Source: Gammaproteobacteria bacterium
Lineage (GTDB): Bacteria > Pseudomonadota > Gammaproteobacteria > Natronospirales > REEB76
Assembly: GCA_035279405.1 (NCBI GenBank)
Contig: DATEHU010000011.1
Span: forward strand, 1-64,000
Length of the DNA: 64,000 nt
Reading direction: 5' to 3'
The position numbers were made by a program, and so were the translations under genes. Within the stretch, counting starts at the first letter, position 1. Each line of letters starts with the position of its first letter. This document shows positions 8,306 through 9,355 of the stretch, in pieces. The notes under the pieces were generated by a model, which saw nothing but the letters and a program-made list of their open reading frames with translations, had not been told where the DNA came from and did no database searches.

Positions 8306-8323
8306 TTTGGTGGGCCGTGCAGG
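8306..8323 (-). repeat. copy of the 3' end of tRNA-Lys
   Basis: 18 bases identical to 8508-8525, the 3' terminus (CCA side plus acceptor strand) of the intact tRNA-Lys gene. The copies are direct repeats about 200 bases apart. The stretch between them (8324-8507) has no gene but holds the hairpin at 8380-8399 and a T-arm-like GCAGGTTCGAGTCC on the plus strand near 8443. Confidence 0.85.
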
Positions 8324-8379
8324 GCGTGGCCGGTGCGCTCACCGGAATGCCAATGGGCTAGCAGCGTCAGCTGCGAGCG

Positions 8380-8399
8380 CCAACCCAGGGATGGGTTGG
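8380..8399. repeat. perfect 8-bp hairpin with GGGA loop
   Basis: CCAACCCAGGGATGGGTTGG is a perfect inverted repeat with a GGGA loop. It belongs to a set of small hairpins in the tRNA region built around CA-GGGA-TG, or its complement CA-TCCC/TCCA-TG (see 8609-8618, 9012-9023, 9271-9284). There is no T-run after it, so it is not a convincing terminator. Confidence 0.75.
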
Positions 8400-8509
8400 C
8401 TGGCTTTCGAGCGAAGCAGGATGCGAAGCGCAAAAGCGAACCGCAGGTTCGAGTCCGGCGCATCAAAGAGAAATAGATCTTATTTGCTATCAGACTTGGA
8501 CGAGTAATT

Positions 8510-8585
8510 TGGTGGGCCGTGCAGGACTCGAACCTGCGACCTACTGATTAAGAGTCAGCAGCTCTACCAACTGAGCTAACGGCCC
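8510..8585 (-). tRNA. tRNA-Lys (CTT)
   Basis: A 76-nt cloverleaf on the minus strand with acceptor GGGCCGT/ACGGCCC, T-arm GCAGGTTCGAGTCCTGC and encoded CCA. The anticodon stem CTGA/TCAG closes the loop CTCTTAA, giving CTT, lysine. Partial copies of its two ends lie on both sides (8306-8323 and 8701-8720). Confidence 0.95.
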
Positions 8586-8586
8586 A

Positions 8587-8720
8587 AATTCTGATCTCAC
8601 TCACAGAACCATCCATGGCGCGCACCCGGCTCGGCATCGTGCCTCGCGTTCGTCCGGATCGAAATGCCACCGGTATTTCGATTCAATACACCGGCCTCAC
8701 CCAACTGAGCTAACGGCCCA
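8587..8720. repeat. repeat unit 1 ending in a copy of the tRNA-Lys 5' end
   Basis: About 114 bases of non-coding DNA followed by 20 bases (8701-8720) identical to 8567-8586, the 5' end of tRNA-Lys. The unit shares a core with 8967-9091 (CGCGCACCCGGCTCGGCATC, then GCCT-GCGTTCG) and with 9190-9314. It contains the small hairpin CCATCCATGG (8609-8618) and a longer stem GAAATGCC/GGTATTTC around 8661-8679. Confidence 0.8.
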
Positions 8721-8783
8721 CCAGAGGATTCTTGATGGTTTATATACTGAATCAACGGTATAGCGACTGCCCGAACAATTAAA

Positions 8784-8860
8784 TGGGGTGGACGATGGGG
8801 CTCGAACCCACGACAGCCGGATCCACAATCCGGGGCTCTACCAACTGAGCTACGTCCACC
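8784..8860 (-). tRNA. tRNA-His (GTG)
   Basis: A 77-nt tRNA on the minus strand with the extra encoded G at position -1 (C at 8860 on the plus strand) opposite discriminator C, the identity mark of bacterial tRNA-His. Anticodon loop ATTGTGG gives GTG. T-arm GTGGGTTCGAGCCCCAT, encoded CCA. Confidence 0.96.
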
Positions 8861-8887
8861 ATAAACTCATTGCCAGCTTCGCCGTCT

Positions 8888-8964
8888 TGGCGCGCCTGGC
8901 AGGAGTCGAACCTGCGACCGCCGACTTAGAAGGTCGGTGCTCTATCCAACTGAGCTACAGGCGC
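8888..8964 (-). tRNA. tRNA-Arg (TCT)
   Basis: A 77-nt cloverleaf on the minus strand with acceptor GCGCCTG/CAGGCGC, anticodon loop CTTCTAA (TCT, arginine AGA/AGG), T-arm GCAGGTTCGACTCCTGC and encoded CCA. It lies 27 bases downstream of tRNA-His coordinates on the same strand, so these two are probably one transcript. Confidence 0.95.
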
Positions 8965-9091
8965 AAATTCAGATTGTACTCACTGCGCCATCCCTGACGC
9001 GCACCCGGCTCGGCATCCCTGCCTTGCGTTCGGCGGAACCTGACAGCCACCGGCTGTCCGATGAAAACACGCGCTGCACCTACAGGCGCAA
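8965..9091. repeat. repeat unit 2 ending in a copy of the tRNA-Arg 5' end
   Basis: Non-coding stretch that starts directly at the tRNA-Arg 5' end and finishes with 12 bases (CTACAGGCGCAA, 9080-9091) identical to that end at 8955-8966. It shares the core with unit 1, but its internal stem is different: GACAGCC/GGCTGTC around 9041-9057 replaces GAAATGCC/GGTATTTC. Small hairpins CATCCCTG occur at 8989-8996 and within GGCATCCCTGCC at 9012-9023. Confidence 0.75.
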
Positions 9092-9107
9092 TTTCAATGC
9101 AGCAAAA

Positions 9108-9184
9108 TGGTCGGGGCAGAGGGATTCGAACCCACGACCCCCTGCTCCCAAAGCAGGTGCGCTACCAGACTGCGCTATGCCCCG
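9108..9184 (-). tRNA. tRNA-Pro (TGG)
   Basis: A 77-nt cloverleaf on the minus strand with acceptor CGGGGCA/TGCCCCG, anticodon loop TTTGGGA (TGG, proline), T-arm GTGGGTTCGAATCCCTC and encoded CCA. Its 5' half is copied exactly at 9315-9355. Confidence 0.95.
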
Positions 9185-9189
9185 CCGCG

Positions 9190-9355
9190 TAACCTTATCA
9201 ACAAGTCACCTGCTTTGTGGGAGCAGGCTGTTGCTGGCTCGGCTCGTGCCTCGCCTAGCAACCCAGCCGTGTACATCCATGTACCCGGCGCTCGTCCCGT
9301 TCGGGACTCGCCCTCAAAGCAGGTGCGCTACCAGACTGCGCTATGCCCCGCCGCG
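9190..9355. repeat. repeat unit 3 ending in a copy of the tRNA-Pro 5' half
   Basis: A 125-base spacer followed by a 41-base perfect direct repeat: 9315-9355 equals 9149-9189, which is tRNA-Pro from its first base through the anticodon plus a few upstream bases. The spacer shares GGCTCGG..TCGTGCCTCGC with unit 1 and contains the perfect hairpin GTACATCCATGTAC (9271-9284). The half-tRNA cannot fold as a tRNA. The remaining bases to folD (9356-9463) show nothing I recognise. Confidence 0.85.

Follow-up and report, generated by a model that had tools for sequence, protein, structure and literature searches.

Structured non-coding modules between tRNA genes and displaced copies of their ends in a gammaproteobacterial genome

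A tRNA cluster with displaced gene ends

The window analysed here is a stretch of 64,000 nucleotides (contig C11, positions 1-64000) from a 2.46-Mb draft genome in 59 contigs, designated G000. Pro-TGG, Arg-TCT, His-GTG and Lys-CTT, its four tRNA genes, occupy 8510-9184 on the minus strand. The intact tRNA-Lys(CTT) (8510..8585, minus strand, found by ARAGORN and Rfam) is targeted at both ends. A displaced copy of its 5' end, comprising nucleotides 1-19 plus one flanking base and ending in GG, is located at 8701..8720 (minus strand). Between this copy and the gene is a module with three hairpins, pointing toward tRNA-Lys (8608..8700, minus strand; 75.4 bits with covariance model R1), followed by a module tail that probably extends from hairpin 3 to the intact gene (8586..8607, minus strand). 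On the other side, a displaced copy of the 3' end, 16 nucleotides plus two flanking bases, is found at 8306..8323 (plus strand, antisense as written). The module part of this 3' unit also points toward tRNA-Lys (8357..8424, plus strand; R1, 29.7 bits), and the unit includes an inverted copy of the Lys T arm (8442..8459, plus strand; inverted repeat I3, 94%).

The intact tRNA-Arg(TCT) (8888..8964, minus strand) is preceded by a module pointing toward it (8987..9079, minus strand; R1, 61.6 bits) and by a displaced, decayed copy of its 5' end, 12 bases long (9080..9091, minus strand). For the intact tRNA-Pro(TGG) (9108..9184, minus strand), the displaced 5' end extends to the anticodon loop and consists of nucleotides 1-36 plus five upstream bases (9315..9355, minus strand; repeat D5). 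The module pointing toward tRNA-Pro is at 9248..9311 (minus strand; R1, 28.3 bits), and an inverted copy of the Pro anticodon arm is found at the gene-proximal end of the unit (9207..9227, minus strand; inverted repeats I2 and I7). The tRNA-His(GTG) (8784..8859, minus strand) lacks a unit here. Many other units, such as L065, L052, L003 and L077, likewise include an inverted T arm (in 3' units) or anticodon arm (Pro) beside the intact gene.

These four modules, between 8357 and 9311, were the only covariance model matches in the 64-kb window, and no Rfam family other than tRNA reached its gathering score in this stretch. All of the partial copies reported in an earlier, sequence-only reading are present, including the 41-base exact copy at Pro. 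The spacer core GGCTCGGCATC noted in that reading is real and is hairpin 2 of the structured module; however, as an 11-mer it is not rare, with 38 matches in the window at up to two mismatches compared to 42 expected. Therefore, the case rests on the whole spacer.

The module family within and beyond the genome

Every tRNA gene of the genome was compared with its own flanks. Displaced copies of the 5' and/or 3' end were found at 19 of the 43 tRNA genes, and at the tmRNA gene. Nucleotides 1 to about 19 were copied upstream of 10 tRNAs and the last 11-19 nucleotides downstream of 14, including Leu-CAG, with copies at both ends in 5 of the 19. The copies are around 115-190 bp from the intact gene, and the units are non-coding. 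The tmRNA gene (L107) has the same 3' layout, and its terminator is apparently duplicated as well. By a strict count (at most one mismatch in 16, within 420 bp outside the gene end), 21 out of 86 tRNA gene ends had their own copy, compared to 0.86 (mean) and 4 (maximum) in controls with flanks exchanged between different tRNAs. This excludes chance, in agreement with the earlier view.

When the genome was searched with the Lys spacer, the strongest further matches mostly adjoined other tRNA genes. The covariance model gave 64 matches in the genome at E<=1. Among the best 53, 31 were within 450 bp of a tRNA or tmRNA gene, a zone that makes up 1.75% of the genome (binomial p ~1e-40). The strong copies are mostly at tRNAs, and a spacer found mostly away from them, which would have spoken against a link with tRNA ends, was not borne out. 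Of these 31 modules, 28 point toward the nearest tRNA or tmRNA gene, whichever side they are on; the three exceptions are a copy at a thiS-like gene, a stacked copy aimed at the neighbouring tRNA-Ala and a tmRNA copy. The other 22 of the 53 were intergenic, at protein-gene ends or nested in larger repeats, and a duplicated gene end is clear in only some of them. This genome also contains a larger MITE-like repeat (L092, L093, L101 and L104, on contigs C17, C21 and C26), which has AAATCCCCC...GGGGGATTT at its ends and carries nested hairpins of the module kind (CCATGGATGG, GAGCAGGATTGCG).

The spacers form a family of modules of around 96 nucleotides with the order GYGAG–hairpin 1–CGARCGC–hairpin 2–CTGG–hairpin 3. 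Read toward the intact gene, the 5' and 3' units share a common plan, which is the displaced end, GG, GYGAG-GCCGG, hairpin 1, CCGGC-CGARCGC, hairpin 2 with an ANGGA loop, CTGG, hairpin 3 (CACCAGGGATGGT), a tail of about 20-30 bases and the intact gene. Some 3' units, above all those of tRNA-Ser, are longer and more divergent. Base-pair covariation in the modules is very strong. In an alignment of 24 sequences, 88.4% of cells in the 29-pair structure were paired, compared to 73.9% after shuffling, and the covariation score was 0.341, compared to 0.120 in shuffled and at most 0.061 in slid alignments. With 131 distinct rows, in an alignment fitted to the model, the score was 0.605 against 0.141. 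None of the Rfam families matched the modules, as only tRNA and tmRNA reached the gathering score.

It could be argued that the modules act as RNA, as pre-tRNA leaders and trailers that bind CsrA/RsmA through the ANGGA loops of hairpins 2 and 3. These loops resemble the CsrA consensus, and GGA was found in the best hairpin-2 loop in 88 out of 109 modules, and in 90 out of 115 at the terminal hairpin. However, G·U pairs are nearly absent and the modules belong to no Rfam family. Hairpin 1 had 6 G·T and 3 A·C in 984 pairs, whereas tRNA stems of the same genome had 21 and 1 in 516 (p=4e-6), a contrast that may be somewhat overstated because the scoring of hairpin 1 trims mismatches at stem edges. 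As hairpin 1 is nearly without wobble pairs, DNA palindromes are indicated rather than a conserved RNA, which suggests a role for hairpin 1 at the DNA level. In addition, the 3' units are antisense to the tRNA transcript, therefore transcription from the tRNA promoter would not yield their GGA strand. With the 3' units on the wrong strand and G·U pairs this scarce, an RNA regulator or CsrA sponge was rejected, and we consider an RNA function very improbable. The GGA-loop hairpin, which resembles the CsrA/RsmA binding motif, is not confined to these loci; the pattern CCANGGANGG had 175 matches in the genome compared to 36 for a reversed control, therefore it is enriched well beyond tRNA loci.

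The modules are not limited to this genome. Matches to the Lys spacer were found in 8 out of 10 relatives of the same genus, and the covariance model detected modules in 32 of the 229 genomes that were sampled from the class, where tRNA or tmRNA genes were again frequent neighbours. The join TAGCTCAGNTGGGTGAGNCNGG was present in 21 records among 84,980 species, mostly metagenome genomes of gammaproteobacteria; one record comes from the cultured Marinimicrobium alkaliphilum SW121, with the unit at tRNA-Arg (L237), and another carries an alphaproteobacterial label. An intact tRNA was located just downstream in 12 of the 16 records examined, while L238 and L241 look like chance matches. Phages and plasmids had no blastn match to the units, viral contigs had no match to the junction, and the module pattern gave three weak matches in viral contigs (14.8 bits), with the two that were read lying in apparent coding sequence. 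Carriage by phages or plasmids was rejected on the absent blastn and junction matches and the weakness of the viral-contig matches.

Insertion points, protein genes and empty sites

The position of the join was determined for 76 tRNA ends (46 5' and 30 3') from the genomes examined. The 5' copies end exactly at nucleotide 19 (G18-G19, in the D loop) in 33 of 46 cases and in GG in 39, and the unit starts with GTGAG in 28. For the 3' copies, 19 out of 30 end 16 nucleotides from the 3' end, at the edge between T stem and T loop, and 21 have a GG end. In three species, the cut in Pro-TGG lies in the anticodon loop. Therefore, with cuts in the D loop, at the T-loop edge and in the anticodon loop, each of three tRNA arms supplies a site. 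The sites are mostly after GG in sequence that would form a hairpin loop, and modules were apparently located inside the CAGGG loops of other modules, as read from the sequence at the Leu-CAA 3' end, in the Phe 5' array and in L076.

Tandem arrays of near-identical units at a single tRNA were seen in G037 (L142/L187), G008 (L183) and G001 (L075), with seven units in tandem before tRNA-Met in G037. At another locus (L147, ~1467-2187, in G243), a tRNA-Arg between tRNA-Pro and tRNA-His is apparently split by several hundred bases, possibly by a self-splicing intron.

Protein genes, which were named by reading their translations rather than by a family search, also had long gene-end repeats at modules: 42 bp at the start of sdhE, 39 bp at the end of KAS (fabF-like), 60 bp at a gene end in L099 and 27 bp at the start of hslU in G225. 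A unit that duplicates tRNA 5' ends, as first proposed, is therefore too narrow a description, since both ends of tRNA and tmRNA genes and the ends of protein genes are used.

The KAS site is empty in the relative G002. G000 and G004 have the native end outside the module, together with its original tail and the sequence that follows it, and the gene itself ends in a synonymously recoded version (X'). Third-codon identity between G000 and G002 was 0.83 across the 600 bp preceding the site, 0.70 in the last 60 bp and 0.38 in X', whereas the displaced copy matched the native end at 0.92. The sdhE site is empty in G003, G005, G007 and G009. Between G000 and G004, the replaced start of sdhE (X') had a third-codon identity of 0.62, compared to 0.84-0.91 in the following windows. 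Remnants of older modules are present upstream of the displaced sdhE copies, and the arrangement of these sequences suggests that insertions may have stacked, with the newest adjoining the gene. At these two protein genes the copy on the gene side is a recoded replacement and not a plain duplicate. The pattern is like that left by integrases by which split genes are restored, and unlike a simple duplication of tRNAs. A module also abuts the 3' end of a thiS-like gene in three species (G000:C17:52240-52335, L121; L078; L088), where the TGA stop codon is supplied by the GTGAG start of the module.

Sites at tRNA genes were also found empty: G005 has no insertion in the Lys-His gap, and G003 has none at the 3' end of Gly-CCC. 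These bear on the alternative that tRNA genes were partially duplicated in tandem and later decayed, without a mobile element. Tandem arrays do exist and some repeats are perfect; however, the insert is one structured family with a fixed left end and orientation, it is also found at tmRNA and protein genes, and relatives have empty sites, as at L073 and L088. Simple tandem duplication as the sole cause is refuted by the empty sites, the shared module and the protein targets, and we regard this alternative as having almost no likelihood. The earlier proposal, that a single mechanism works through a small mobile unit, has good support from the shared structured module, the fixed insertion points, the empty sites and the recurrence of the pattern in many species.

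We favour, with modest confidence, the explanation that the spacers are one family of miniature, non-coding, palindromic mobile elements, in which the module and X' are placed by a reaction that restores the gene end. The order at a target is the displaced gene end X, GG, the module (GYGAG left end and hairpins 1-3), the replacement X' ending in GG or a similar sequence, and the rest of the gene, Y. The moving unit could be the module plus the carried gene end X'; an enzyme acting in trans would place it after GG, in a site-specific DNA reaction that depends on the hairpins. X' would repair the gene split by the insertion, and therefore only insertions at matching gene ends would survive. In its function, this would be the gene-end-restoring integration of genomic islands reduced to about 130-200 bp. 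A unit made of module plus X' would explain why the recoded ends begin at the insertion point, why the modules face the gene, how they stack and how insertions at essential genes survive.

Some observations count against this explanation. In young insertions, near-perfect repeats can extend far outside the gene, as in L244, where a perfect 72-bp repeat includes 53 bases upstream of tRNA-Arg, and in L237, where a terminator is within the duplication, and these equally fit a plain target duplication. Another possibility, which we consider rather unlikely, is that the module is inserted with duplication of 20-75 bp of local target, either by a transposase whose staggered cut is long and variable or by target-primed RNA copying, and that the protein genes were recoded later. 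The flank bases within repeats at L147 (17), L144 (9), L149 (6) and L082 (12) also agree with target duplication. However, the recoding in KAS and sdhE begins at the insertion point while the rest of the gene is far more alike, and for target-primed copying, reverse transcriptase was not found in several module carriers. The repeats in L244 and L237 would fit restoration of the gene end by a carried X' if the unit came from the same species. Module similarity tracked X similarity weakly (Mantel r=0.17, p=0.04 overall), and the correlation was not significant within 5' or 3' units.

A search of the carriers for three candidate enzyme families yielded no mobilising enzyme, as none of the three was present in all carriers, and no excised form was found. 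A Y1 transposase (PF01797) is present in G000, and in 25 of 32 carriers compared to 121 of 197 other genomes (p=0.08), with no match in the carriers G029, G072, G150, G181 and G225. Reverse transcriptase (PF00078) had no match in 9 out of 15 carriers, including G000, G008 and the single-contig G037, and the IS110/IS1111 DEDD transposase (PF01548) had none in G000 and seven other carriers. G150 had no match to any of the three. RAYT, IS110 and reverse transcriptase were each rejected as the sole responsible enzyme, being missing from some carriers, although the carrier genomes are mostly drafts and single absences are therefore weak. Judged from sequence alone, integron attC sites have the wrong box order and domain V of a group II intron was not seen, so both were set aside.

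More tentatively, the units could be a new class of gene-free mobile DNA, in which a fixed left end is combined with a flexible right end that picks up a neighbouring gene terminus. Such a unit would carry its own repair patch and could insert without harm at the termini of essential genes (tRNA, tmRNA and protein) in other strains and species. If restoration of gene ends by these units is borne out, a type of integration known from islands of kilobase size would extend to elements too short for any gene of their own, with dozens of sites in each genome and many gammaproteobacteria as hosts. Gene ends recoded in nature would then be at hand as examples, the units might offer a way to make small insertions at gene termini, and a recombinase that acts on hairpin loops after GG could be sought in a testable way.

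Comparison with genomic islands and other mobile elements

The layout resembles that of tRNA- and tmRNA-targeting islands with tyrosine integrases, as catalogued in Islander. These likewise split their target, leaving a displaced fragment outside and a restored, sometimes recoded, end inside; they also stack in tandem and cross over in the T loop and anticodon loop. Islands in protein genes are represented by the prophages e14 and P21 in icd and by SXT in prfC. Like islands, the units have an intact tDNA together with a correctly oriented displaced terminal fragment, but they have no integrase inside the element and fall outside the length range of 2-200 kb. They could be scars of ordinary tRNA-targeting islands, that is, attachment sites remaining after island loss, as a displaced fragment with a restored gene is the classic island signature (PMC4383910) and integrases are known to cross over in the T loop and anticodon loop. 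However, one covarying module of around 96 nucleotides is found at more than 20 unrelated targets in many species, identical units form tandem arrays (L142, L183 and L075), and no larger intermediate was seen at the loci read, which makes such scars an improbable source.

The units differ from islands in several ways. They are about 0.13-0.2 kb compared to more than 2 kb, or about a hundredth of the size, and are without an integrase or any gene. They are present in many copies per genome, use both 5' and 3' ends, and commonly cross over in the D loop. The earlier statement that the usual integrative elements keep the 3' fragment is correct by the Islander counts, with 3760 islands having a 3' tDNA fragment compared to 159 with a 5' fragment (PMC4383910). 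Island surveys require an integrase and at least 2 kb (PMC4383910), and with these filters such units would therefore be missed.

Palindromic and REP-like elements, MITEs and Rickettsia palindromic elements are likewise short, non-coding hairpin repeats that occur in many, sometimes nested, copies. The units described here differ from them in having a defined join after GG inside gene ends and a restored gene end; no terminal inverted repeats of known transposons were seen, and they are not tied to Y1/RAYT. They also differ from MITEs of DNA transposons, which have terminal inverted repeats and a target duplication of fixed length: the left end of the units is constant, no counterpart to it was seen on the right, and the repeats vary from about 12 to more than 70 bp. 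Casposons insert at tRNA 3' ends with target-site duplication, but they are large, encode Cas1 and have terminal inverted repeats (PMC6563490); the units share with them tRNA targets and direct repeats and are non-coding. No description of such elements was found in the literature searched, in which coverage of subscription papers and preprints is thin. There is a fair chance that the units, which are outside genomic islands by their size and their lack of an integrase, represent a class of their own.
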